Shown here: positions 50,138 to 64,000 of the stretch, in pieces | Numbering within the stretch: position 1 is the stretch's first letter | Layout: the number at the start of each line of letters is the position of its first letter | NCBI RefSeq assembly: GCF_024721305.1 | Contig: NZ_JAMXOD010000016.1 | Coordinates: 25,684 to 89,683, forward strand | Reading direction: 5' to 3' | DNA from: Aequitasia blattaphilus | Lineage (GTDB): Bacteria > Bacillota > Clostridia > Lachnospirales > Lachnospiraceae | DNA length: 64,000 nt | Notes under the pieces: generated by a model | Seen by the model: only the letters and a program-made list of their open reading frames with translations | The model's database searches: none | Told to the model about the DNA's origin: nothing | Translations under genes and position numbers: made by a program

Positions 50138-52357
50138 TCATTCTTTTTCTAAAACAATCAATTTTGAATAAAAATCATATCCCGGTTCATCACCTCTTAC
50201 CGGTAAACCACAGCTTCCATCTGCCAGGCTGATTCCCATATTCATTAACTCCAGACCACTATAGGTCTTTTGATTATCCTTTCTTTTATAAACTGCCTTC
50301 TCATCCAGACCTCTTGGATAGATTCTTCTAAAAGGAGCATTTACCTCGTTAAGCTCACGGTAAATTCCAATTACTGCTGTTTCTTTTCCTTCGTCTACGC
50401 ACATCCAGCCGGATATATTATTTTCGAAGGGGCTTTGCAATCTGTAAAATCTCCCCTTTTGAATCACTTCACGGTATTCCTTCATAAATCTGACCTGCTC
50501 TTTTATTTCTAAACGCTCTGTATCTGACAGGATTCCCAGATCCAGTTCATATCCAAAGGTTCCAAAGCATGCCACATCTCCTCTTGTTTTCAGCTTTATC
50601 TCCCGATTCAACTGGGCATTTGGAGATTTTGATACGTGAGCCCCCATAGTACATAATGGATAGATAAAAGAAGTTCCATACTGGATTTTCACCCGTTCAA
50701 ACGCATCATTGTCATCACTTGTCCATGTTTGAGGGGCATAATAAAGCATACCCGGGTCGAACCTGGCTCCGCCGCTTGCGCAGGACTCAAATAATACATT
50801 GGGAAAAGCCTGTATCATTCGTTCATAAAGCCTGTAGACTCCAAGCATATATCTGTGATAAATTTCTCCCTGTTGCTCCGGTGGAAATACCGGAGAATAG
50901 CATTCTGTCAGGCTTCTGTTCATATCCCACTTAATGTAGGAAATCTCACATCCTCGAAATGATTCATGAAGCATATCGAAAATCCCCTCTACCACCTCCG
51001 GGTTTGCAAAATCCAAAACGTATTGATTCCGTCCATGAGATGTTTTTCGCTCCGGAGTTCTCAGCACCCATTCCGGATGATTCTTATAAAGTTCAGAATC
51101 CTTACTGATCATTTCCGGTTCTATCCAGATTCCGAAAGCCATGCCCAACTCAGTGATTTTCTTCGAGAGACCCTGCAATCCGATTGGTATTTTCTCCTTA
51201 TTTACGAACCAGTCTCCAAGTCCTCCCAGCTCACTGTTTCTTTTTCCAAACCATCCGTCGTCTAATACAAATAGCTCCATTCCAACTTCCTTTGCTGTTT
51301 TCGCCAGTGTGAACAGCTTTTCTTCATTAAAATCAAAATAGGTTGCTTCCCAGTTATTAATGGGAATAGGTCTTACCTTTTCTTTCCAGCTTCCTCTGAT
51401 CAGGTAGTGTCTGAATAAAGAGTGGAATCCATTGCTAATATCCTGCAGTCCCTTCGCGGAATAAGTCATTGCGCATTCAGGGGATTCAAATACCTCCCCT
51501 TCCTTTAATCTCCATGAAAATGTGTCCGGGTGTATTCCCAGCTGTACTCTTGTAAGATCATGGGTAGATACTTCAATCTGAGCTTCAAAATTCCCACTGT
51601 ACAGAAGTGCAAATCCAATTGCTTCTCCAAAGCTTTCCGTCGTTTCCTTCCTGGATAAAATAAAGGCAGGATTATGATTCGCTGAAGATATTCCTCTGTT
51701 ACTTCCAAATCCTTGTGTTCCCCAGACTAACGCCCTGGACTTTACATGTCTTTCTCTACTCCACGCACCGGAAAATTGAAGCATTTCATAGTCTTTATCC
51801 GGTAAATCAAGATTTAAGCTCATTATCTTATTTATGGAAACAGACTGGTCTCCCCGGTTTTCAAATGTGACTCTTCTTGTAATCCCATTCAATTCATTAA
51901 AAATCGAGTAATGAAGTGTCATTTGAATCTTAGAAACTACGTCTTCTAAAATAATCTCCAAAGAATCACAGTCACTCTCCTGATTTGCATAACACGCAGG
52001 TAAACCTTCTATTCCTTTTTTACCGGAATATATTTTATGGCTTTTATATTGAAAATCCGAAATGCAGCTTCCATTTTCCTGCTGTATTTCAAATGCAGGT
52101 ATGCGGTAATCTGTTGTACCAAAGGACGGATACTCCTGTTTTATATGCTCTAAAGAAAACTCCCAGTCTCCTTCATATACATAGCTTGTCATATACCTTG
52201 CCGCATATTCTATATATTCCGAATAGTCCGGCTTATCTTCGACTCTTTTCCCAAAGTAAATCTGTCCGATACTGCCATTTCTTAAAACCTTTATAATATA
52301 ACTCATCTCCTGATTATAAAGATGAAATTGTTTCGTTTTTTCGTGAAAGCGTATCAT
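50138..52357 (-). CDS. GH36 alpha-galactosidase (RafA/AgaA type)
   Basis: A 739-residue cytoplasmic alpha-galactosidase, homologous along its length to the enzyme at 20482-22677 but clearly diverged. Motifs: LDDGWFGKR near 365, nucleophile Asp478 in YIKWDMNRS, ESCASGGARFDPGML near 524, acid/base Asp548 in TWTSDDNDA. AAGGAG precedes ATG 52357. It is the last gene of an operon with a complete CUT2 importer, which is unusual because CUT2 systems usually carry monosaccharides while this enzyme needs at least a disaccharide or glycoside such as melibiose or galactinol. Confidence 0.94.
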   Translation of the reverse strand: MIRFHEKTKQFHLYNQEMSYIIKVLRNGSIGQIYFGKRVEDKPDYSEYIEYAARYMTSYVYEGDWEFSLEHIKQEYPSFGTTDYRIPAFEIQQENGSCISDFQYKSHKIYSGKKGIEGLPACYANQESDCDSLEIILEDVVSKIQMTLHYSIFNELNGITRRVTFENRGDQSVSINKIMSLNLDLPDKDYEMLQFSGAWSRERHVKSRALVWGTQGFGSNRGISSANHNPAFILSRKETTESFGEAIGFALLYSGNFEAQIEVSTHDLTRVQLGIHPDTFSWRLKEGEVFESPECAMTYSAKGLQDISNGFHSLFRHYLIRGSWKEKVRPIPINNWEATYFDFNEEKLFTLAKTAKEVGMELFVLDDGWFGKRNSELGGLGDWFVNKEKIPIGLQGLSKKITELGMAFGIWIEPEMISKDSELYKNHPEWVLRTPERKTSHGRNQYVLDFANPEVVEGIFDMLHESFRGCEISYIKWDMNRSLTECYSPVFPPEQQGEIYHRYMLGVYRLYERMIQAFPNVLFESCASGGARFDPGMLYYAPQTWTSDDNDAFERVKIQYGTSFIYPLCTMGAHVSKSPNAQLNREIKLKTRGDVACFGTFGYELDLGILSDTERLEIKEQVRFMKEYREVIQKGRFYRLQSPFENNISGWMCVDEGKETAVIGIYRELNEVNAPFRRIYPRGLDEKAVYKRKDNQKTYSGLELMNMGISLADGSCGLPVRGDEPGYDFYSKLIVLEKE

Positions 52358-52368
52358 ACAACTGCTCC

Positions 52369-53313
52369 TTATACTGCATTTCTTCGTTTTTTGCTAAAAT
52401 TATCTAAAGCAACAGCCAGAATCAGAACAAGTCCTTTTACGACTCTCTGCCAGTAATCCTGGATATCCATCAAAACCATACCGTTTGTTAAAACTCCCAT
52501 GAACAGAACACCAATCAGGACGCCTCTTATCTTTCCTTCTCCTCCTGCCACACTGGTTCCTCCCAGTACACAGGCTGTAATAATATCCATTTCATAGCTG
52601 TTTCCTGCTGTGGGCTGTCCACTGTTAATTCTGGAGAGAAGAATCACTCCTGCCAGCGCTCCTAAAATTCCCTGGAGAAGATATACCTTATAGATTACCT
52701 TACTTACCGATACGCCGGAAAGTCTTGAAGCCTCTTTATTTCCTCCGATGCCGTATACTGTCCGTCCAAATATGGTTTTATTCAACACAATGTATCCAAA
52801 GATAAAGACCAGAACCATAATGATAACCGGGAAGGGAATTCCAAGCATATATCCCTGTCCTAAAAATAGAAAGCCGTTTGGAAGACCATAAATTGGCATA
52901 CCTCCTGAAATCAGGTAGGCAACTCCCCTTAAGATGGTCATTGTTGCAAGGGTGGCAATCATTGGAAACATTCCGATGATATTAATCAGCATGCCATTAA
53001 TCAGGCCGATTACTGCTCCTACTAAAAGACAAATCAAAACTGCCAATACCGGGTGCATTCCGCCAGCCATCAGTGATGCTCCTAAAACGCAGGCAACTCC
53101 AACTAATGAACCTACCGATAAGTCTATACCACCCGTGATAATTACCATCGTCATACCAACAGAGCAAATACCCATAATCGCAATTTGTCTTAATATATTT
53201 AAAATATTTTCTCTAGTCAGAAATGCGTTTGCCGTAAAGGAAAAAATCCCTATCAGAACAATAAGTGCGACAAGCATAGCATATTCCGTCCAATTTACTT
53301 TTTTCATTTTCAT
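52369..53313 (-). CDS. CUT2 ABC importer permease, RbsC type
   Basis: A 314-residue multi-helix permease: GMTMVIITGGIDLSVGSLVG near 54, LATMTILRGVAYLISGG near 117 and ACVLGGTSVAGGEGKIRG near 240. ATG 53313 has GAGG eight bases upstream; the frame extends to 53370 but overlaps the ATPase gene. Second CUT2 pore in the window and the likeliest partner for the nearby pseudo-ATPase. Confidence 0.93.
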   Translation of the reverse strand: MKMKKVNWTEYAMLVALIVLIGIFSFTANAFLTRENILNILRQIAIMGICSVGMTMVIITGGIDLSVGSLVGVACVLGASLMAGGMHPVLAVLICLLVGAVIGLINGMLINIIGMFPMIATLATMTILRGVAYLISGGMPIYGLPNGFLFLGQGYMLGIPFPVIIMVLVFIFGYIVLNKTIFGRTVYGIGGNKEASRLSGVSVSKVIYKVYLLQGILGALAGVILLSRINSGQPTAGNSYEMDIITACVLGGTSVAGGEGKIRGVLIGVLFMGVLTNGMVLMDIQDYWQRVVKGLVLILAVALDNFSKKRRNAV

Positions 53314-53326
53314 TCTCTTTACCTCA

Positions 53327-54814
53327 TTAATGGGAAGCCATCTCAAGTATCTTTTCTTGTGTTGCTTCACTTTTTAGTATTTCTCCGCTTATTCTTCCTT
53401 CATGCATGACTATAATTCTATGGGACATACACATAAGTTCCGGCATTTCAGAAGAGATCATAATTACGACCTTCCCTGCATCAACCAATTCCTTCATAAT
53501 CGCATATATTTCCTGCTTTGCACCTACATCAATACCTCTTGTAGGCTCATCAAAGATCAGGACCTTGCAGTTTGTTGCCAACCATTTGGCCAATACTACC
53601 TTCTGCTGATTCCCCCCTGACAGGTTTTTAACCTTTTGTTCTACCGAAGGGGTTTTGATGTTCAATGTCTTTTGATATTCCGTTACATCATTCATTTCCT
53701 TTTTTTGATCCACAAAGAATTTCCCCTTTGAAAACCCTTCTAGATTAGCATATGTGATGTTCTCACGGATTGTCATTCCTAAAATTGCCCCCTGGGTCTT
53801 CCGGTCTTCTGTTAGTAATCCTATCCCGTTTTGAATTCCATCTTTTGGTGTACGGTTCACTATTTTTTGATTCTCCAGAATAATTTCACCTGTTTTAATC
53901 GGATCTGCTCCGAATATTGCCCGCATCACTTCTGTTCTTCCCGCTCCTACAAGACCTGCAAATCCCAGTATTTCCCCTTTGTATGCACTAAAGGATACAT
54001 CCTTTACATATTTATTCGTGAGATTTTTGACCTCCAGAACCTTATCTGATTTCTTATAAGGAACTTCCGGATATTGCTCTCCTAAATCTCTGTCCACCAT
54101 AGTACGGATAAGCTCTTCCTCTGTTGTATCCGCTACATCCATACTCTTTACATAATTTCCATCTCGAAGAACTGAAATCTTTTCACAAAGCATAAATACC
54201 TCTTCCAACCTATGAGAGATGTAGATTATTGAAACTCCATCTGATTTTAACTTTTTTACAATCTCAAACAAGTATTTCAGTTCGTTATTCGTAAGAGGTG
54301 CACTCGGCTCATCCATAATCAGGACTTTAACATCTTTTACCAGCGACTTTGCGATTTCCACAATTTGCTGATATCCGATTGATAAATCTTTTACCAAGGT
54401 TTTAACAGAGATATCCACTCCTAAATATTCCAGTATCCTTTCGCTTTCTTTTTCCATCTTATCGAAATCGACCAGTCCCTTTCTAGTCGGATAATTTCCA
54501 TAAAAAATATTTTCAGCAACGCTTAAAAAAGGAATTAGGTTAAACTCCTGATAGATTGCCGAGATTCCCAAATCCATAGATTTTAAAGGGGAATTGTCTG
54601 TAACCTCTTCCCCTTTAAAAACAATCCTGCCCTCTGTGGGTTTAATCGCACCGGTAATACACTTTATAAAAGTGGATTTTCCCGCACCATTCTCCCCACA
54701 GATTGCATGGGCCTCGCCTGGATAGAAATCTATGGAAACTCCGTTTAGTGCGGTGACACCCGGATAAACCTTTTTTATTTCTTTTAACTCTAATATTGGT
54801 TTTGTTTTTTCCAT
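53327..54814 (-). CDS. CUT2 ABC importer ATPase, RbsA type
   Basis: A 495-residue tandem ATPase with intact motifs: Walker A GENGAGKST, Walker B VLIMDEPSAPLT and the H-loop IIYISHRLEEV in domain 1; GLVGAGRTEV, LSGGNQQKVVLAKWL and LIFDEPTRGIDVG in domain 2. It drives the importer encoded with it. Alignment by eye with the 58352-59686 protein shows the same domain order and comparable spacing, which supports calling that protein a degenerate RbsA. Confidence 0.95.
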   Translation of the reverse strand: MEKTKPILELKEIKKVYPGVTALNGVSIDFYPGEAHAICGENGAGKSTFIKCITGAIKPTEGRIVFKGEEVTDNSPLKSMDLGISAIYQEFNLIPFLSVAENIFYGNYPTRKGLVDFDKMEKESERILEYLGVDISVKTLVKDLSIGYQQIVEIAKSLVKDVKVLIMDEPSAPLTNNELKYLFEIVKKLKSDGVSIIYISHRLEEVFMLCEKISVLRDGNYVKSMDVADTTEEELIRTMVDRDLGEQYPEVPYKKSDKVLEVKNLTNKYVKDVSFSAYKGEILGFAGLVGAGRTEVMRAIFGADPIKTGEIILENQKIVNRTPKDGIQNGIGLLTEDRKTQGAILGMTIRENITYANLEGFSKGKFFVDQKKEMNDVTEYQKTLNIKTPSVEQKVKNLSGGNQQKVVLAKWLATNCKVLIFDEPTRGIDVGAKQEIYAIMKELVDAGKVVIMISSEMPELMCMSHRIIVMHEGRISGEILKSEATQEKILEMASH

Positions 54815-54832: not shown

Positions 54833-55819
54833 TTAATAATCACTGATATTTTCAGAAGTAACAGGTATCAGATTTACATAAACCGGATCCTCTATCGGCC
54901 CGTCTTTTATAATCTTCTGTAATGTTTCAATAGCTAATGCTCCTGTACCATATGGATCAATGTCTACTGTTCCTACGTAGTTTCCACCTTCTTTGATTTT
55001 GTTAATTGCTTCCGGTGTTGCATCCAGACCTACAATACATACATTCGTCTTATTTGCAGCTTTAAAGGCTTCATATGCTCCCAGAGCACTGGCATCATTA
55101 TTACAAACAATTACATTTGCATCCGGATGTGCCTGAAGAATTGTCTCTGCAGCACTCATTCCTGCTTCTGTTGTAATGGCTCCCTGCTCTGCTACTACCT
55201 CAGCCTTTGGTGCAATGTTTAAACATCCTTCTTTTAGTCCACGAATTCTCTCTGCAAGAGATGGCTGCTCAGGAGCTGTAAATAATACCACCTTTGCATC
55301 TTCTTCCTTTTCTAAATTTTCTTTAATCCATTCGCCAGCTATTTTTCCACCCGCTTCACCAAATGCATACTCATTCGGTGTAATAAATGCCGTTCTTCCC
55401 GGAATCTCCAGATTCATTGAAATGACAGGTATTCCTGCATCTGTTGCCTTTTTCACAACACCTTCCAATGCCTTTTCATCTACTGGTGTGATGAAAATCG
55501 CATCCTTTTTTTGACTGATGAAATTTTCGATTGTTGCAATCTGTGTCGCAACATCCATCTTACAATCCTGAATGGTTACATCCATTCCTTCTTCTTTTGC
55601 TTTTTCAGAAAAACCATCTGCCAGAGTAACAAAATATGTGTTACTTAAATCATGCAAGCTATATGCAATCTGTAGATTACCATCTCCTGAAGATTCTTTT
55701 TTTTCACTTTTCTCTGCTGGCTCACTTTTCCCACTATCCATAGAACAACCTGTAAAAATCACACACATCAATGCTGTTAACAGGATTGATGAAATTATTT
55801 TTTTCGCATTCTTTCTCAT
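54833..55819 (-). CDS. CUT2 sugar-binding lipoprotein, RbsB type
   Basis: A 328-residue lipoprotein with signal peptide and lipobox FTGC (Cys25), then the binding fold LQIAYSLHDLSNTYFVTLAD, AIFITPVDEKALEGVV and GIPVISMN. ATG 55819 was preferred because residues before it in the longer frame (to 55912) are highly basic and unlike a signal peptide. First gene of the CUT2/GH36 operon; the ligand is probably a galactose-containing small glycoside. Confidence 0.92.
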   Translation of the reverse strand: MRKNAKKIISSILLTALMCVIFTGCSMDSGKSEPAEKSEKKESSGDGNLQIAYSLHDLSNTYFVTLADGFSEKAKEEGMDVTIQDCKMDVATQIATIENFISQKKDAIFITPVDEKALEGVVKKATDAGIPVISMNLEIPGRTAFITPNEYAFGEAGGKIAGEWIKENLEKEEDAKVVLFTAPEQPSLAERIRGLKEGCLNIAPKAEVVAEQGAITTEAGMSAAETILQAHPDANVIVCNNDASALGAYEAFKAANKTNVCIVGLDATPEAINKIKEGGNYVGTVDIDPYGTGALAIETLQKIIKDGPIEDPVYVNLIPVTSENISDY

Positions 55820-55888
55820 ATTCCTTGGTCTCCTCATTTTCCTCTTCTTTATCTGCAGATTTTTGAAGCGTTTTTGTTTACAGTTGTA

Positions 55889-55917
55889 ATTATAGTGGAA
55901 TTTATTCATCAACTCAA
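55889..55917 (-). promoter_or_regulatory. Sigma-A promoter of the second CUT2/GH36 operon
   Basis: TTGAGT (55917-55912), 17 bases, TATAAT (55894-55889) on the minus strand, 70 bp before the lipoprotein start. It lies in the 192-bp gap shared with the divergent YesN operon, where the plus-strand promoter is weak (TAAAAT at 55982, no clear -35). Confidence 0.65.
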
Positions 55918-56011
55918 TGTATCAAATCTTAGTATGTGTGGTCGATTTTTAGGTTTCGTAGAAACATATTTTCTTTTGTGTTAAAATAAAAAAAAACCTT
56001 GGAGGGGCAAA

Positions 56012-57574
56012 GTGAGACAAAGAGTATTTATTGCAGATGATGAAAAATTGATTTGCCAGCTATTGGAAAGGGCAATCCACTGGGAGGAATTAAACCTTGA
56101 GTTAGCCGGAGTTTTTTACGATGGAAGGTCGCTTTATGAAGGGATTCTCAAAGATGAGCCTGACATTGTGATTACCGATATCTCTATGCCTCTGCTTAAT
56201 GGTATTGAGATGATTCGACTGGCGAAGGAAGCGAATTGCCAGTCGCATTTTATCATCATCAGTGGCTACAAAGAATTTGAATATGCTCATTCTGCCTTAA
56301 AGTATAATGTAGAAGATTATTTGCTAAAACCTGTGAATACGGAAGAATTAAACAGAACTCTTGAAAAGTTGACAAAAAAAGAGATTGGAGCAGGAAAAAA
56401 TATACATTCTGTCCCAACGGATTCCTCCTCATTTGACGAAACCCGTCACAGCCGGTATATGTTCCAGTCTTTGGTAAATAATCGGGGCATCGAAGATTTC
56501 ACTTTAAAGGGTAGTACTTTTCAATGTATTACAATCCACCTTTTTGCAAAAAGAGACGAAAAAATTCAAATTCCCTCACTGAATGAAAAAATACTTCGTA
56601 TCATTAAAAACCATTTAGAACCTTTAACCCGGCAATGTTTCATCGACTGCGACAACAAATGGATTTATGCATTTATTGACTATGAAAATAATCAAAGAGA
56701 AAACATATACAAGGCACTTCACAAATCCTATTCTTACAGCGAGAATATCACTGATATTTTTCTCGGCTTAAGTGTAAGCTTTGGAATCAGTAAACCGTAT
56801 TGTTCTCTCAGCGATTTTCAAAATGCCTATCACGAAAGCCGGCTTTCAATTCTGTCACGCCTATGTACAGGAAATTTCGAACCTCTTTTTTGGGAAAAGC
56901 TTCAGATACAGAGTGAAGAATGGCTCACTATAGACAATGCATTTATTAACACTCTCAAACAGGATATAGAGTCTTTGTCTACTAAGGATTTTGAAACACA
57001 TTGCACCCTGGAATTTTCCCGTTTCCGTAAGACTGTAAATATAAGATCTCTGGAAACTTTCACGGCTAAAATCCTGACGATCGTCTCTGATGTAAAAACA
57101 GAAATTCTCAAAAAGACATTTGACCGCAAAGATACTATAACATTATTTATGGAATCTGCCTTGTCTTTGAGAGATCTGAGAGAGTATTTTGAATTTTTTA
57201 CAAATTACATTCTAAAAGAATTGGAGCTTTTAAGACAGACAACACAGTCAAAATATGCACAGCCGGTAAACCAGGCAATTGACTATATAGAAAGTAACTA
57301 CCGGAATTCTGTCAAGTTAGATGATGTGTCTAAGATATTGGATTTGAATCCGGCATATCTTTCCAGTCTTTTTAAAAAAGAAACGGGAATCAATTTCCTG
57401 GACTATTTACATGATTATCGTTTAGAAAAAGCAAAAACACTTTTAAAAGACAGCAACTATAATATCTCCGAAATCAGCGATTTAGTCGGATACAATGATT
57501 CAAGACATTTCAGCAAACTTTTCAAAAAGAAATTTGGGATTAATCCCAGTGATTACAAGCAGATGTATAACTAA
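56012..57574 (+). CDS. YesN-type response regulator with AraC output domain
   Basis: A 520-residue regulator of full YesN length: receiver domain 1-120 with phospho-acceptor Asp56 in IVITDISMP and LLKPVN, a long middle region (about 140-400) with no recognised motif, and an AraC output domain at about 415-515 (LDLNPAYLSSLFKKETGINF, then LVGYNDSRHFSKLFKKKFG). Start is GTG 56012 with GGAGGGG. It begins a three-gene operon with a soluble kinase and a degenerate ATPase, and its promoter faces that of the second CUT2/GH36 operon, the probable target. Confidence 0.93.
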   Translation: MRQRVFIADDEKLICQLLERAIHWEELNLELAGVFYDGRSLYEGILKDEPDIVITDISMPLLNGIEMIRLAKEANCQSHFIIISGYKEFEYAHSALKYNVEDYLLKPVNTEELNRTLEKLTKKEIGAGKNIHSVPTDSSSFDETRHSRYMFQSLVNNRGIEDFTLKGSTFQCITIHLFAKRDEKIQIPSLNEKILRIIKNHLEPLTRQCFIDCDNKWIYAFIDYENNQRENIYKALHKSYSYSENITDIFLGLSVSFGISKPYCSLSDFQNAYHESRLSILSRLCTGNFEPLFWEKLQIQSEEWLTIDNAFINTLKQDIESLSTKDFETHCTLEFSRFRKTVNIRSLETFTAKILTIVSDVKTEILKKTFDRKDTITLFMESALSLRDLREYFEFFTNYILKELELLRQTTQSKYAQPVNQAIDYIESNYRNSVKLDDVSKILDLNPAYLSSLFKKETGINFLDYLHDYRLEKAKTLLKDSNYNISEISDLVGYNDSRHFSKLFKKKFGINPSDYKQMYN

Positions 57575-57588
57575 TCTTGAGGTGTTTT

Positions 57589-58359
57589 ATGCGTATTGTA
57601 ACAAAAAAACAGCTGGAAAAGCTGATTGAAAAAAGAATAAGTGAAGAGCGAAAGAAAAACCAGTCCCTTTATCGAAAACAGATTTTAGATTACTCAAGAG
57701 ATCTTATGGCACTGCAGAGCCAGATTAACCCTCATTTTTTGTATAACTCTCTTGAGTGTATCCGGGGATTGGCCATGATAGAAGGTTCCAATGAGATTGC
57801 ACGGATTTCAGAAAATCTGTCTAATTTCTTTCGCTATAATATAAATATAAAACGAGATATCGTGACCATACATGACGAAGTTGAAAATGTTAAAAACTAT
57901 ATAACTATTCAGCAGTTTCGTTTTCAGGACAAGTTTCAGATTCATTATGACTTTGAGAATAACAGCCACTTATTGGCGCATTCCCTTCCCAAACTCACCT
58001 TACAGCCCCTGGTGGAAAATGCTCTGAATCACGGGCTAAAAGATACCCTAACTGATGGATTAATAACAATAACTCTTGAGGAGGGCGATTCTTTTTTACT
58101 GATTCATATTATTGATAATGGTAAAGGTATCGAGCCCCCCAGACTCATCGAAATCCAAAATGCCCTTTACGACGCAGAACTGCAGCAGCTAAGTTCTGAC
58201 AGATCAAACAATGGCTCAGCCCTTTTGAATGTTCATCACCGGCTTCAGCTCCATTTCGGATTTGAATTCGGACTTGAAATCAAAAGCGCTCTGGGCTTTG
58301 GCACACGAATCACAATTCGACTTCCAAGAAAGGACAAGAACCCGATCCACTATGAGTAA
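57589..58359 (+). CDS. Soluble YesM/LytS-like histidine kinase lacking membrane and sensor domains
   Basis: A 256-residue kinase made only of an N-terminal helix rich in Lys/Glu (about 1-40), the phospho-acceptor domain with His49 in SQINPHFLYN and the ATPase domain (LVENALNHGL, IIDNGKGIEPP, GSALLNVHHRLQLHFG). Typical YesM proteins are 550-600 residues with two membrane helices and HAMP; none is here. ATG 57589 follows TTGAGGTG, 14 bp after the regulator stop. Its ending overlaps the next gene by eight bases. With no sensor of its own, it presumably receives the signal from a partner, the next gene being the obvious candidate. Confidence 0.92.
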   Translation: MRIVTKKQLEKLIEKRISEERKKNQSLYRKQILDYSRDLMALQSQINPHFLYNSLECIRGLAMIEGSNEIARISENLSNFFRYNINIKRDIVTIHDEVENVKNYITIQQFRFQDKFQIHYDFENNSHLLAHSLPKLTLQPLVENALNHGLKDTLTDGLITITLEEGDSFLLIHIIDNGKGIEPPRLIEIQNALYDAELQQLSSDRSNNGSALLNVHHRLQLHFGFEFGLEIKSALGFGTRITIRLPRKDKNPIHYE

Positions 58360-59686
58360 AAAAGAAATCTTAAAGCTTGGGAATATAAACTTGCATCATC
58401 CGAAATATTATCCTCTGCTTCATGCAGATATCACAATATACTCTGATGAGATAACAGGCCTGCTTGGCTTGCATGATTCCGGTATTTCAACCTTGATCGA
58501 ACTCTTTTCCGGTGAACTTTTTACCCGGGATATCCGCTGCTTTTATAGGGAACAGGTTGTCTCTCTTTCGGAAATTCAAAACAAATCCTTTGTTCTGCGT
58601 AAAAGAAGTTCGCTTACACCAAATCAGACCATTCTGGAAAATATCTTTTATATTTCAAAGGAGCGTCCTTATCGTCTATGGACACATGAAAAGAAATGCC
58701 AAAAAGAGCTTCTTTTTTTGCTACGCAAATTGAACCTGTCTTTGGATATTATGAAAAGGACTTCTGAACTTACGAATCCGGAGCGCATCATTGTTGAGTG
58801 CTTGAAAGCCATAACTCTTAAGAAGGAGTTTATTATATTCGAAGACGTCTTTTCTTCTTTATCTTATGATCAGATGGAAACAATACAGGATTTTCTCCTC
58901 CGGATAACTCATACCTATCCTTTTATAAATATTATATTAACAGCCAATCAAAGCCATTATATACACCAGCTGGCTCAATCAATAACTTTTATGGCCAAGG
59001 GTCACAATATTTATGAGACACCTAATGTATACTCCCAGGAAAACTACGACTCTATCCTTTCTTCCGGAAAAATAAAGAACCTCAACAAAGTAAATTCACC
59101 TAAGTCCAGCCCTGCTGATTATGTATTTCAACACGCAGACTTATATTTATACAGGAATGAAATGACAATTTTGCTTGACCCTTTCTTTGTTCTTCGAAAT
59201 CCGATTAAAGAGCTTATACTAAATCAAAAACAGACAGACTCCGTATTCCTCTCCTTCAATGTGAATGAGCAAATCATCGAGAATCTGTCTGTTATTGATA
59301 ACCTTATACTTCAAAAGCCAAAAAATTTTACTAAGGGAGGCTTCATCCATCGAAAACGCCTTACTGCTTTAAAAAATGATTTTTGTGACTGGTGTAAAGA
59401 GCGAAAAATCAATTATGATTTTATTAATTCCAGCCACTGCTATAACCTGAGCCCTTTTGAAAAAATGAGTGTCTACCTTTTTAAATGCTCCTTACTGAGA
59501 AAGCAGATTCTGTTTATCGCCGATCCCCTTTTATACTTTGACATCAATATGGCAAGTCTGGTTCTTGGTGAAATTGATTTGTGGCAAAAAGGCGGAGCAA
59601 CCATCTGTATATTCGCATCTGAAATGCGGGATGTATATCGAAGTGCTGACAGAGTACTGCAGGTTAAAAAAGATGGTACTATATGA
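58352..59686 (+). CDS. Degenerate RbsA-like tandem ABC pseudo-ATPase
   Basis: 444 residues that follow the layout of RbsA/MglA ATPases without their active residues. Domain 1: the Walker A position reads GLHDSGIST (39-47), with Ile in place of Lys; the Q-loop region reads KRSSLTPNQTILENIFYI; the signature position reads LTNPERIIVECLKAI (140-154); Walker B reads EFIIFEDVFSSL; and the switch His is replaced in LTANQSH. Domain 2 lacks any glycine loop (ILLDPFFVLRN), then YNLSPFEKMSVYLF and ILFIADPLLYFDIN stand where LSGGNQQ and LDEPTRGVD belong. The end, FASEMRDVYRSADRVLQVKK, matches RbsA well. ATG 58352 overlaps the kinase stop by eight bases (ATGAGTAA). No mutation pattern of a pseudogene is seen: the frame is intact and coupled. 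A signalling or docking role is inferred. Confidence 0.82.
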   Translation: MSKKEILKLGNINLHHPKYYPLLHADITIYSDEITGLLGLHDSGISTLIELFSGELFTRDIRCFYREQVVSLSEIQNKSFVLRKRSSLTPNQTILENIFYISKERPYRLWTHEKKCQKELLFLLRKLNLSLDIMKRTSELTNPERIIVECLKAITLKKEFIIFEDVFSSLSYDQMETIQDFLLRITHTYPFINIILTANQSHYIHQLAQSITFMAKGHNIYETPNVYSQENYDSILSSGKIKNLNKVNSPKSSPADYVFQHADLYLYRNEMTILLDPFFVLRNPIKELILNQKQTDSVFLSFNVNEQIIENLSVIDNLILQKPKNFTKGGFIHRKRLTALKNDFCDWCKERKINYDFINSSHCYNLSPFEKMSVYLFKCSLLRKQILFIADPLLYFDINMASLVLGEIDLWQKGGATICIFASEMRDVYRSADRVLQVKKDGTI

Positions 59687-59794: not shown

Positions 59795-60121
59795 CTACAA
59801 GCATATGATTGCATTCACTCCTTCAATCCATTTAGTCGGTGACATTGTGAATACATTTGCTCCCGCTGCATTTCTAAACAGGTCGAATTCGACCTGTTTA
59901 AAATCAGGATTATGAAGACTTTCCCATAATCCCAAGAATTCTATCGTATCACGACTCCGTAACCAATTCTTAATTACGTCGTGCGGCATATCGCTTTTAT
60001 ACCTTGCTATATCGGTCAACGATAGAAATTCATTTTCAAAATCCGTTGTATAAATACCAATGCTGACACCCTTGCCTTCGACTATACCCTTCCCACTACC
60101 GGACATGTTCCGTACTTGCAC
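59795..60121 (-). pseudogene. KilA-N domain protein fragment
   Basis: 108 residues with the start of a KilA-N domain: FLSLTDIARYKSD, VIKNWLRSRDTIEFLGLWE, VEFDLFRNAAG and SPTKWIEGVNAI. KilA-N proteins are phage or mobile-element DNA-binding proteins, usually of 250-290 residues. The homology stops at IEGVNAI and a stop follows at once, so at least half the gene is missing. It lies alone between the pseudo-ATPase operon and a palindrome, and is probably a relic of a lost mobile element. Confidence 0.7.
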
Positions 60122-60258: not shown

Positions 60259-62003
60259 CTAATTCCTTTGACTCCATCCCCGACTGTTTTCACGCGCCGT
60301 AATAAATGTTTGATAAATCCCTGCCTGATTAATCAGTGTATCATGATCTCCCTGTTGAGAAACCACTCCATTCGCAATGACTAAAATGCTATTCGCACTG
60401 CGAATTGTGTTCAATCGATGGGCAATGACGATCAGTGTCTTTCCTTTGCACAACTCACTGATTGCCTGCTGAATATAGCTTTCATTATCTGCGTCAACAC
60501 TTGCAGTGGCTTCATCCAAAATGACAATAGGAGCATCCTTAAGAATGCATCGAGCAATCGAAATACGCTGCTTCTCACCACCAGAAAGTGTCTCTCCACC
60601 CTCTCCTACTACTGTATTAAAGCCCTCAGGTAAAGCCATGATAAAGTCATAACATCGGGCTTTTTTCGCAGCCTCTATTACCTCCGCTTCTGTTGCATCT
60701 GGCCGCCCCATGCTGATGTTATTATAAATCGTGTCCTGAAATAAATATACTCGCTGGAACACCATACTGATATGATTCATCAAATCGCTTAAAGGTACTT
60801 CCCGTATATCCTTACCACGAATAAGCACCTGACCGCTCTTTACATCCCAAAAGCGTGCCAACAGATTTGCGATTGTTGTCTTTCCTCCGCCAGAGGGTCC
60901 AACCAGCGCTAACATATTGTTTTTCTCAAGTGAGAAGGAGACATTTTTCAACACCTCTTTTTCCCCATATCCGAAACTCACATCGCTAAACTGAATTTCT
61001 GGTTCCTCTCCCCCATGAGGAATTCTATCTTTTCCTGTATCTAGAAGTTCTGCTTCGTAAAAAACCTCCTCAATACGATTCAAACAGCTATTCATCACAG
61101 TCAACCTTGCGCTATTTGCATATAAAGCCTTGACGGGACCAAACAAATCAAGTACAAACAACATAAATCCCACCGCAAAAATAGTTGCCATCTGTGCCTG
61201 AGAATGAAGAAAAACAGTCAAAGCTATTGCTGCCGCCGACCCTAGTCCAAACACAATAAGCATTCTTCTTTGCCATGGCGAATGGTTCTCTTCAAACTGG
61301 ATATTTTTATCACAGCTTTTTTGAAAATTATCTGTCAGTTCCTTCGACTTCTCTCCCAACAAATTGTATGTTTTAATAATGCCGATACCTTCTGTAAAGT
61401 CGAGTATAGATTCGGTCAAGCTCTCGCTTTGCTCCTGCTTGATATGAGAATCCTCAAGGGATTCTTTTTGCATTCCCTTTCCAAAAAGCAAGCCAATTAG
61501 AATCACCACTACAGCTAGATCCCCTAGCCATATATTGAAGAAAAACATGAATGCAACCATAACAACCTGGGAAAAAATGTAACCCATCATATCCGCTAAA
61601 ACCATCATACAGTTTTCTTCAACAAAGTTCATATCTGTCGAGAGTACGGAGCTGATTTTTCCAATATTTCCTCCGTAAAGTAGCCCATAGGCATTTTTCG
61701 CAAATGTGCCCCAAGCTCCATACGCTTTTCCGCCATAACCATAAATCCAGCCGAAGATTGTAGTTTATTATCCAAATGTTGAAATAAAATCTGTAGAAGG
61801 ACACACACCGCCATTCCTCCACCAAGTTGTAAACACATCTCCCCAGATGCCGTGTTTTCATAAAACCGCATTAGTGCGTAAAATGCCAGCATAATTGGTG
61901 CTCTAGAAAGCATGGATTTCAAAAAAGAAAACACGAGAGCAAGATGTATTCTACTCTTATACTTTCCTGAGAAATTTAAAATTCGCTTCATCAGTGTAAT
62001 CAT
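60259..62003 (-). pseudogene. ABC exporter half-transporter, frameshifted
   Basis: The gene begins at ATG 62003 (overlapping the preceding stop as ATGA, with GGGAGG upstream) and reads MITLMKRILNFSGKYKSRIH to GYFTEE near residue 112. There the frame is lost, and the family sequence resumes one frame over as NIGKISSVLSTDMNFVEEN, continuing to the end at 60259. One A appears missing in a short A run at about 61667-61669. The ATPase part is otherwise perfect: Walker A GPSGGGKTT, LSGGEKQRISIARCI, Walker B IVILDEATASVDAD, and His in IVIAHRLNTI. Repair would give about 580 residues, the normal size. It pairs with the neighbouring half-transporter, itself broken. Confidence 0.82.
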
Positions 62004-63494
62004 AGTGTTTGTCCTCCCTTCTTCATCGTGACGCTCCAATTTACGCTTGCTTCGGCTGCGTTCCAAAGTGCTTGATATGCAGGACAACTAGCCAAAAGAT
62101 TTTCATGCACTCCAGCCGCTGCCAGATTTCCATTTTCCATAACACATATTTGATCCGCATTTACAATGGACTGCAGACGGTGAGCAATAACAATTACGGT
62201 CTTATTCTGGATAAGTTCTGCAATCGCTTCATTCATTTTCTCCTCATTCTCCGGATCCATAAATGCTGTCGCTTCATCAAGAACGATGATAGGTGCATTT
62301 TTCAATATTGTACGGGCGAGAGAGATTCGTTGGCGTTCACCACCGGAGAGCTGTTTCCCTCCATCTCCTGCCATCGTATATATACCTTTTTCAAGTCGTG
62401 CAAGAAACTCTCCGCACTGGGCTTTTTCCGCTGCAGCCAGCACTTCTTCATCACTTGCATCTAATTTTCCGATACGAATATTCTCAAGTAGAGTAGTGTT
62501 AAAAAGGAATTGTTCCTGAGCCACATAGGAAATTTCTCTATTCAGTGCTTCCAGACTCATCTCACGGATATCCTGACCTCCAATTTTTATTGCCCCACCG
62601 CTTACATCGTAAAAATGAACCAACAGCTTTGCAAGAGTTGATTTCCCACTTCCACTCTCCCCCACCAAGGCGGTTAAGCTGCCCTCATGAGCCTCAAACG
62701 AAACCCCATGTAACACCTCTTCATCCTTATAGGCGAATCTTGCCTCTTCAAATGTGACGTTGTGATTTTTTCCGGCAAAATCTCCTTCACCCTGTTCCAG
62801 TGGAGGCGCATCAAGCATATCTTCAAGAGCCTTTATCTTGTAATTAATCTGTGGAAGTGTTGAGCCAAAGCCCAAGGCTTTTATAAAAAGAGGCCCGATA
62901 GAGAAGGACATACACAGCACCAAAACGAAATCCGGTAAGGTTGAAAAACCATTCAAAACGAGATATGCACCAATGGGTAATGTAAACATTGCCACACAGG
63001 GGAGAATACTGCTATAAAGCGCCATCCATGGCCAGCATGCCTTATACCACTTAAGTGTAAAAGTAAGATAGCTCTTCACATCTCCCTCAAAGCGATGATA
63101 GCTTTCACCATCTCGGTTAAAAACCTTCACGACCTCCATCCCATTTATATATTCCACAATGGTGTTATTCATCTTTTTTCCGGCGGCATAGTAATTTCCC
63201 ATTTCTCCCATGCCAATCTTATACATAATGCCCATGGCGATGATGCCAAGGGGCAGCGCCGCAAGACTAAGCAGAGAAAGCTTCCAATCGACGAGAAACA
63301 TAAAGATAAATACGATGATCGGTGCACCGATATTCGCAATCCCCTCAGGTAACGCATGTGCCATAAGCAATTCAACATTCTCAATGTCGTCAATAAACAT
63401 TTTCTTTAATGCACCTGTTCCTTTGTCCTGTATCGTTCCGAGGGGCAGCCTTTCAAGTTTGCCCTGGAGAGAAACACGCAGATTTTTCAAAGTA
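62000..63494 (-). pseudogene. ABC exporter half-transporter, 5' end cut by insertion element
   Basis: Readable ABC sequence starts at about 63494 with TTLKNLRVSLQGKLERLPLG, within the second or third membrane helix region, and runs to the stop at 62000. The ATPase domain is intact (GESGSGKST, LSGGERQRISLARTI, IIVLDEATAFMD, VIVIAHRLQSI). About 80-90 N-terminal residues are missing. The apparent start upstream (ATG 63526) lies in the end of the IS element, not in the gene. Its missing part should lie beyond the element, outside the window. Confidence 0.82.
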
Positions 63495-63640
63495 GTGACA
63501 TGCTCCCACCACTTGAATGCTATCATTCTGAAGTGGGGGCTTCCTGTTCAATATTCCCAATGGAATAAGTATCTGCAGGCTATCCCCGTATGCCCTACGG
63601 TTTGTGTTCTTTTATTTTCGTACAGTCACGCACTTAGCAT
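63495..63640 (-). ncRNA. Probable omega RNA (reRNA) of the TnpB system
   Basis: In IS200/IS605 elements the guide RNA of TnpB covers the 3' end of tnpB and the right end of the element. This stretch occupies that place, is conserved in character (a CAATATTCCCAATGGAATAA region and the end hairpin) and carries no other gene. Boundaries are estimated from family knowledge; no direct evidence of transcription. Confidence 0.4.
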
Positions 63641-64000
63641 TCTTTTTCCTTCTTCCCGGATATTGATTGCAGCATTTACATCTCTGTCTAACTGATTCCC
63701 ACATTCACATCGATAGCTTCTCTCTGCTAAGGAAAGTTCCCTCTTTATTTTTCCGCATTTACTACAGGTTTTACTGGAAGGATAATAGCGATTGATTTTT
63801 AAGAGCTTCTTTCCCCTGTCTCTCAGTTTATATTCCAAGAGATTACAGAAGTTCCCAAATCCATTATCCATCACCCCTTTTCCCAGATGGAGGCTCCTAC
63901 TCATGCTTTTCATGTTTAAGTCTTCTACACAGACTACATCATATTCCCTTGCCAGTTCCAGACTCAACTTATGTTGATAGTCTTTTCTTTGATTCTTTGT
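63626..64000 (-). CDS. tnpB: TnpB RNA-guided nuclease, C-terminal part
   Basis: 124 codons open to the window edge. The RuvC-like active-site Glu lies in VVCVEDLNMKSM; the zinc finger has CSKC and CEC in SKTCSKCGKIKREL and YRCECGNQ; and the last active-site Asp is in LDRDVNAAINI. This is the typical end of TnpB (about 370-400 residues), a transposon nuclease guided by omega RNA and ancestral to Cas12. The start and the first 250 residues lie outside the window. Confidence 0.93.
   Translation of the reverse strand, partial: TKNQRKDYQHKLSLELAREYDVVCVEDLNMKSMSRSLHLGKGVMDNGFGNFCNLLEYKLRDRGKKLLKINRYYPSSKTCSKCGKIKRELSLAERSYRCECGNQLDRDVNAAINIREEGKRMLSA

Follow-up and report, generated by a model that had tools for sequence, protein, structure and literature searches.

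The window analysed here, a stretch of 64,000 nucleotides from Aequitasia blattaphilus, contains a CUT2 importer operon and, divergent from it, an operon for a two-component system that ends in a catalytically degenerate ATPase, the pseudo-ATPase (pATPase). The features of the locus are:

50138..52357, minus strand: GH36 alpha-galactosidase (Melibiase, by domain match), downstream of the importer
52369..53313, minus strand: RbsC permease, candidate docking partner, not of the diverged private type described below
53327..54814, minus strand: genuine RbsA, catalytic motifs present
54833..55912, minus strand: RbsB-type solute-binding protein of the divergent CUT2 importer (Peripla_BP_4)
55913..56011, no strand: intergenic stretch of 99 bp separating the divergent importer and regulator operons, with the longest ORFs as borders
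56012..57574, plus strand: YesN-type response regulator, receiver and AraC-type HTH, GTG start
57589..58359, plus strand: histidine kinase, 256 aa, His_kinase (PF06580) and HATPase_c, with H, N and D/G boxes present
58352..58359, plus strand: 8-bp overlap of kinase stop and pATPase start (ATG at 58352, kinase stop ending at 58359)
58352..59686, plus strand: pATPase, tandem RbsA-type ABC protein, 444 aa, with none of eight scored catalytic residues

The initial annotation had described a frame open over 444 codons that overlaps the kinase gene by eight bases, and its position, length and overlap were all found; translational coupling of the two genes is likely. Equally, the kinase without a sensor domain, next to a YesN regulator and divergent from a CUT2 importer, is present in the window as described. 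His_kinase and HATPase_c are the only domains of this kinase, which also lacks a membrane helix. The alpha-galactosidase gene behind the importer points to a possible galactoside regulon. On the other side of the pATPase gene, a short KilA-N-like frame (59795-60121, minus strand; E 5e-5, just under the cut-off) precedes the exporter genes, namely an ABC exporter half apparently split into two frames (457 and 152 aa; 60259-62087, minus strand), possibly frameshifted, and an adjoining partner with both exporter domains (62000-63526). A TnpB-like frame with a Cas12f1-like TNB domain (63626-63967, minus strand; E 2e-23) lies near the window end. Note that the genome carries a second pATPase triplet (G000:C17:30862-32232, equal to L071 7863-9239), with a two-helix kinase and RbsA-RbsC-RbsB genes directly downstream.

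We determined the catalytic state of the pATPase from an alignment in which 117 pATPases were compared at eight catalytic residues with 101 RbsA-type proteins encoded at the same loci. With L100 set apart, all eight were intact in 97 of 100 RbsA proteins, the rest keeping six or seven. In the window pATPase none is kept: the Walker A Lys is replaced by Ile and the Q-loop Gln by Lys, both signature motifs are absent, and the switch His of NBD1 is Asn. The Walker B acids persist, but out of place, with the acidic pair reversed in NBD1 (Glu-Asp for Asp-Glu) and reading Ala-Asp in NBD2. The initial annotation was therefore correct as to the Walker A Lys, the signature and the NBD1 His, and is refined for the two Walker B pairs, where acids remain in misplaced form. 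Moreover, its loss of a switch His can apply to NBD1 only, because the NBD2 switch position is without His in RbsA proteins too.

The window protein has the two tandem ABC ATPase domains of an RbsA-type (CUT2) ATPase and lacks the Walker A, Walker B, signature and switch residues that go with them. Pfam returned a single weak ABC_tran match (E 1.6e-5), and the best NCBIfam matches were the RbsA/XylG/GguA/AraG models (E 2e-14 to 1e-12), far below their cut-offs. An AlphaFold2 model had a mean pLDDT of 83.7. The NCBIfam matches, the confidence of the model and the full-length relatives beside a kinase in many genera indicate that the resemblance is more than chance. Judged from its sequence, the window protein is a tandem ABC ATPase of RbsA descent whose catalytic residues are gone. 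A PDB sequence search listed other ABC families, with no close solved CUT2 ATPase among the best 60 of 91 matches.

All 117 pATPases group in a single clade (support 0.999), separate from the 101 RbsA-type proteins. The sister of this clade (support 0.991) is L100 8072-9523, an ATPase that keeps seven of the eight catalytic residues. Within the clade, 40 of 117 proteins retain the NBD1 Walker A Lys and 22 the Q-loop Gln; one has an NBD2 Ser-x-Gly signature and none the NBD2 Walker B Asp. The retained Walker A Lys, with which part of the family may still bind nucleotide, and the state of L100 would be compatible with a nucleotide-responsive switch, in which ATP is bound at one site without hydrolysis and the energy state is reported to the kinase. 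However, the window protein has lost all eight residues, 106 of 117 pATPases retain no more than two, and the Walker A Lys is nowhere combined with the partner signature (0 of 117), making such a switch very unlikely.

Loss of catalytic residues and strong sequence divergence (the nearest relative of the window pATPase in the alignment is 24% identical) could also mark a relic, that is, an RbsA duplicate decaying beside the operon and kept by polarity or chance. Against this, full-length frames occur in distant genera, and a shared N-terminal motif is found in 106 of 117 pATPases versus 2 of 101 RbsA-type proteins. Furthermore, dN/dS was 0.04-0.19 in the 28 of 40 closest pairs with computable dS (saturated in the other 12), the window gene not being among the pairs. 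By this measure the relatives are under purifying selection. The dN/dS values and the conservation thus led us to reject decay for the family, and we give the relic explanation next to no weight. The view that the frame is maintained, not decaying, agrees with the dN/dS far below 1 in the relatives, with the full-length frames and with the conservation of the triplet.

A search with the window pATPase as single query mixed pATPases and ordinary RbsA proteins, and profiles were then used. In the first set of loci these separated the two groups cleanly: for every ORF above 150 bits, the pATPase and RbsA scores lay at least 150 bits apart. In the second set, L285 scored 193 versus 175 with the pATPase and RbsA profiles, respectively, and L270 and L281 leaned to RbsA; these scores close the gap, and the border of the family is therefore not sharp. 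When a five-member profile was run against 398 family genomes, the top 40 places were taken by 36 pATPases in 33 genomes and four RbsA-like proteins. The pATPase was present in at least 33 of 398 sampled Lachnospiraceae genomes, at least 9 of 344 in an order-wide and at least 7 of 398 in a phylum-wide search (the window's own genome included in each of these two wider searches), numbers that are lower bounds with four candidates scored per genome for the pATPase profiles and ten for the kinase profile. Named contigs contributed 80 of 142 matches. Carriers include Lachnospiraceae, Oscillospiraceae, Caproiciproducens, Ruminiclostridium, Caloramator and Thermoanaerobacterales. Merging proteins identical over the last 200 residues reduced the locus set from 132 to 117 (window included); L100, L102, L105 and L106, which are RbsA-like and not pATPases, were left out of the counts.

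The gene order of the window, with regulator, kinase and pATPase following each other on one strand, proved to be the rule. A kinase lies directly upstream of the pATPase in 112 of 116 loci with more than 1.2 kb upstream, and the full order is found in 99 of 102 loci with more than 2.8 kb upstream, so that the triplet is conserved in other genomes. The gap between kinase and pATPase is at most 30 bp in 106 of 111 cases, with overlap in 65. As a control, a kinase directly precedes only 3 of 78 RbsA-type genes (L100, L143, L146). L120 is a true kinase-pATPase pair scored as an exception through an early ORF start, and the L133 pATPase is an orphan. Of the 76 loci for which more than 6 kb was available in both directions, 67 contain RbsA, RbsB and RbsC genes in the fetched stretch of ~8 kb to either side; at least one importer gene is absent from the fetched stretch in the other nine, and all are absent in L133, L163 and L164, the latter two having the regulator-kinase-pATPase order.

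Some loci carry additional genes. In L143, L145 and L146 the order is pATPase, chemoreceptor, regulator, kinase, RbsA, RbsC (the L146 protein shares its last 200 residues with that of L145 and was not counted separately). The chemoreceptor lies at L143 9853-11889 and in the same position in L145/L146 (Ruminiclostridium); it has HAMP and MCP domains, as tested in L143, and its place between the pATPase and the regulator-kinase pair suggests a link to chemotaxis. A binding protein of ~610-635 aa lies upstream of the regulator in L090 (2608-4482), with similar lengths in L092, L099 and L107; the L090 protein, on which the domain test was done, has two Peripla_BP_4 stretches.

We also approached the association from the side of the kinase. 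A profile built from 34 kinases was searched in 200 family genomes, with frames under 420 aa classed as short. The pATPase was directly downstream of 52 of 57 short kinases (23 of these pATPases were already known from the pATPase search and 29 were new). The remaining five comprise three whose operon contains a pATPase-like frame at another position (in two cases of only ~250 aa) and two accompanied by the L100 and L281 ATPases. Among the long frames, 22 of 49 were examined, comprising 20 controls, L279 and L270. No pATPase was found beside any of the 20 controls or beside L279, and the long kinase of L270 has a partly intact ATPase alongside. The control kinases measure 491-639 aa, and their successive predicted helices lie 87 to 270 residues apart, indicating an outside segment. 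Several adjoin RbsA genes, and in several loci the kinase gene is immediately followed by RbsB-type genes, in keeping with a binding protein as sensor. The difference between 52/57 and 0/20 (Fisher p 4e-14, a value that measures contrast and not independent events, as the rows share ancestry), together with the topology, indicates that an outside sensor domain and a pATPase nearly exclude each other. Thus, the module is conserved, and the dead ATPase is the regular partner of the short kinase, a conclusion we hold with great confidence. Note that pATPase-like frames of ~250 aa with one domain occur in the operons at L295 10276-11031 and L292 1608-2372; these could be half-size forms or broken genes.

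Most kinases beside pATPases are predicted membrane proteins. Two membrane helices were predicted in 108 of 111 in the first set (kinases under 230 aa dropped) and in 133 of 142 over both sets. The loop between the helices has at most 26 residues in all but L270, with a median of 10, which leaves no space for an extracellular sensor. Six of the 142 kinases have no membrane helix (window, L069, L288, L289, L269, L273). The soluble kinase of the initial annotation is thus real in the window but does not hold as a family rule. The window, L069, L288 and L289 cluster in the trees of pATPase (support 0.994) and kinase (0.859). Given that the window kinase is soluble, the pATPase would be its obvious bridge to the membrane. 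The catalytic boxes are retained in 34 of 34 aligned pATPase-linked kinases, with D, G and G invariant, showing that a regular expression that counted D/G boxes in 29 of 111 was too narrow. By regular expression, the Asp motifs of the regulator were found in 74 of 99.

The sister locus L100 has the layout of the window, with regulator-kinase-ATPase divergent from RbsB-C-A. Visual inspection suggests that the ATPases of L270 and L281 are partly intact, and the helices of the L270 kinase are still separated by 217 residues. In both loci the kinase gene is followed by the partly intact RbsA-type ATPase gene (L270 3882-7139, L281 4366-6970). From these sequences, L100, L270 and L281 look like steps in a series in which the ATPase lost its activity and the kinase its sensor domain. 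A search of 250 genomes for more L100-like proteins returned nothing closer than 38% identity.

We then considered permeases encoded beside the pATPase. In L288 and L289, an RbsC-like gene directly follows the pATPase, with no RbsA-type gene within 20 kb, where the ATPases found were lower-scoring and belong to different ABC types (one is truncated at the end of the stretch). L290 has the order pATPase-RbsB-RbsC, and its 20 kb likewise contain no RbsA. No RbsA accompanies the order pATPase-RbsB-RbsC-regulator-kinase of L291 and L292 either (the L292 contig spans only 14.6 kb), and L293 has pATPase-RbsC-RbsB followed by a complete RbsA-RbsC. These six permeases scored 115, 163, 198, 206, 262 and 288 on the permease profile, compared with a minimum of 260, a 5th percentile of 290 and a median of 434 for 123 transport permeases. 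Four of the six are below the lowest transport permease and all six below the 5th percentile, on a profile that was trained on first-set permeases and favours transport over private ones. The L290 permease groups with an ordinary permease (support 1.0) and is therefore not of the diverged type. The L288 and L289 loci, with their own permease and no RbsA, fall in the window's subclade. No private permease was found in the window's genome: none of its 26 RbsC-like matches belongs to the diverged group, the best scoring 174 bits versus 508-529 for two true private permeases (both in the profile), and all are ordinary RbsC-like genes. Consequently, the window pATPase would have to use an importer's permease. 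The existence of pATPases with their own permease and without RbsA extends the initial annotation.

Conservation within the pATPases was compared between column classes. Mean entropy was 2.38 bits at 22 catalytic columns, 2.26 bits over all columns, 2.01 bits at 111 other RbsA-conserved columns and 1.01 bits at 15 columns just after the two Q-loops; the catalytic positions are thus free to vary, whereas the segments behind the Q-loops are constrained. In other ABC importers this post-Q-loop region contacts the coupling helix of the permease. Its low entropy is consistent with docking but is no test of it, the segment having been picked after viewing the alignment. Mirror-tree correlations with the pATPase, from the only 87 loci with all five genes and with partly saturated distances, were 0.97 for the kinase, 0.90 for the regulator, 0.88 for RbsA and 0.86 for RbsC; the partial correlations were 0.71, 0.40, 0.47 and -0.15, respectively. 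For scale, the known pair RbsA-RbsC gave 0.96 (partial 0.84). Correlation is expected here, as the genes are inherited together, and the histories of RbsA and RbsC are too alike to be told apart easily. As far as trees can tell, their similarity favours contact of the pATPase with the kinase and some tie to the importer, and the negative RbsC value would count against a simple permease-only reading.

These observations suggest the following mechanism. An RbsA, the ATPase of a CUT2 importer, may have been recruited beside a YesN-type two-component system, lost catalysis and become a dedicated input subunit of the kinase, replacing the extracellular sensor domain. The pATPase would retain the RbsA surface that rests on the coupling helices of an RbsC dimer and would sit on the permease of the neighbouring importer, as in the window, or on a private permease, as in some relatives. 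Engagement of the permease by liganded binding protein would alter the grip of the pATPase; the kinase held by it would be switched, and the regulator would turn on the importer and sugar-utilisation genes. We infer that the pATPase probably docks on a CUT2 permease and reports its binding or transport state, with signal transfer to the kinase. The explanation as a whole, a three-gene regulator-kinase-pATPase sensory module of Clostridia that docks on a permease, is the one we favour with moderate confidence. More tentatively, and on present evidence rather doubtfully, the importer itself may have become a non-transporting receptor consisting of binding protein, permease and dead ATPase, with the histidine kinase as sole output. 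The clearest cases for this would be L288 and L289, L291 and L292 (with another gene order) and L293, which lies beside a complete importer; the window would then be a sister form that lost or never had a private permease and has to borrow one from an importer.

Two alternatives place the action of the pATPase elsewhere. As an input subunit of the kinase it might sense in the cytoplasm, responding to a metabolite or to free RbsA set loose by idle transporters, with no permease contact. The higher partial correlation with RbsA than with RbsC, the L163 and L164 triplets without CUT2 genes in the fetched stretch and the helix-free kinase of the window all fit this proposal. However, two helices with tiny loops are present in 133 of 142 kinases, CUT2 genes are found in most loci, and some pATPases have a permease but no RbsA, so that we consider purely cytoplasmic sensing unlikely, albeit the strongest of these alternatives. 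The pATPase might otherwise be mainly a regulatory subunit of the transporter, competing or pairing with RbsA to throttle uptake, with the kinase secondary, as the linkage to RbsA-C in most loci and the tree correlation of 0.88 with RbsA would allow. Yet its steady partner is the short kinase (52/57 versus 0/20, though several controls adjoin RbsA genes), and loci without RbsA exist; a throttle is accordingly quite improbable. We therefore retain the permease-docked sensory module as the preferred reading. If correct, pATPase modules, which are common in gut and anaerobic Clostridia, are likely regulators for many CUT2 importers. The natural series from L100 (nearly intact) through L270 and L281 (partly intact) to the fully dead forms makes the conversion of a pump into a sensor directly testable.

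How does the module compare with known systems? Transporter-mediated sensing is known for a few kinases. Among the titles and abstracts listed by searches of open-access literature, none describes a kinase paired with such a pseudo-ATPase, or a dedicated dead importer ATPase as kinase input subunit. The pATPases share common descent, the two-domain fold and similar length with the tandem CUT2 ATPases RbsA/XylG/AraG, but differ in the loss of catalytic residues and in forming a separate clade. In UhpB-UhpC, a transporter homologue, the major-facilitator protein UhpC, serves as the kinase receptor; in contrast, the pATPase would be the converted cytoplasmic ATPase of an ABC importer. In CbrA of Pseudomonas (PMC7096432), a solute/sodium symporter domain is joined to the kinase. 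There too a transporter-derived module feeds the kinase, but it is a secondary transporter within one polypeptide with the kinase.

Kinases of the YesMN/LytS-XylFII type have an outside domain. The likeness lies in the PF06580 kinase, the AraC-type regulator and the neighbouring sugar importer; the window has this kinase and an AraC-type response regulator and lacks an extracytoplasmic sensor domain. Systems of this group with a sensory binding protein, such as XylFII-LytS, are treated in PMC10384115 and PMC9601137, and PMC3656788 discusses two-component systems encoded close to sugar ABC transporters in Clostridium cellulolyticum, in which binding proteins collect the signal. The difference is plain in our long kinases, none of the 20 adjoining a pATPase and several having RbsB-type genes directly after them.

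BceS-type kinases have two helices and hardly any outside loop. The antimicrobial-peptide module BceAB-BceS is the nearest mechanistic parallel, in that an ABC transporter provides the kinase with its signal. PMC10314905 reports that movement of BceS is coordinated with the ATPase subunit BceA. However, BceAB is of another ABC type with a working ATPase, whereas the pATPase module combines a dead CUT2 ATPase with a separate genuine RbsA, and its regulator is AraC-type, unlike that of BceAB-BceS. In the window itself, the kinase has no helix and the neighbour is a CUT2 importer instead of a Bce-type active transporter. The proposed distinctness from BceAB-BceS and YesMN/LytS is thus upheld. The pATPase module would work like a transporter-coupled kinase and, on the features tested, falls outside both of these groups.
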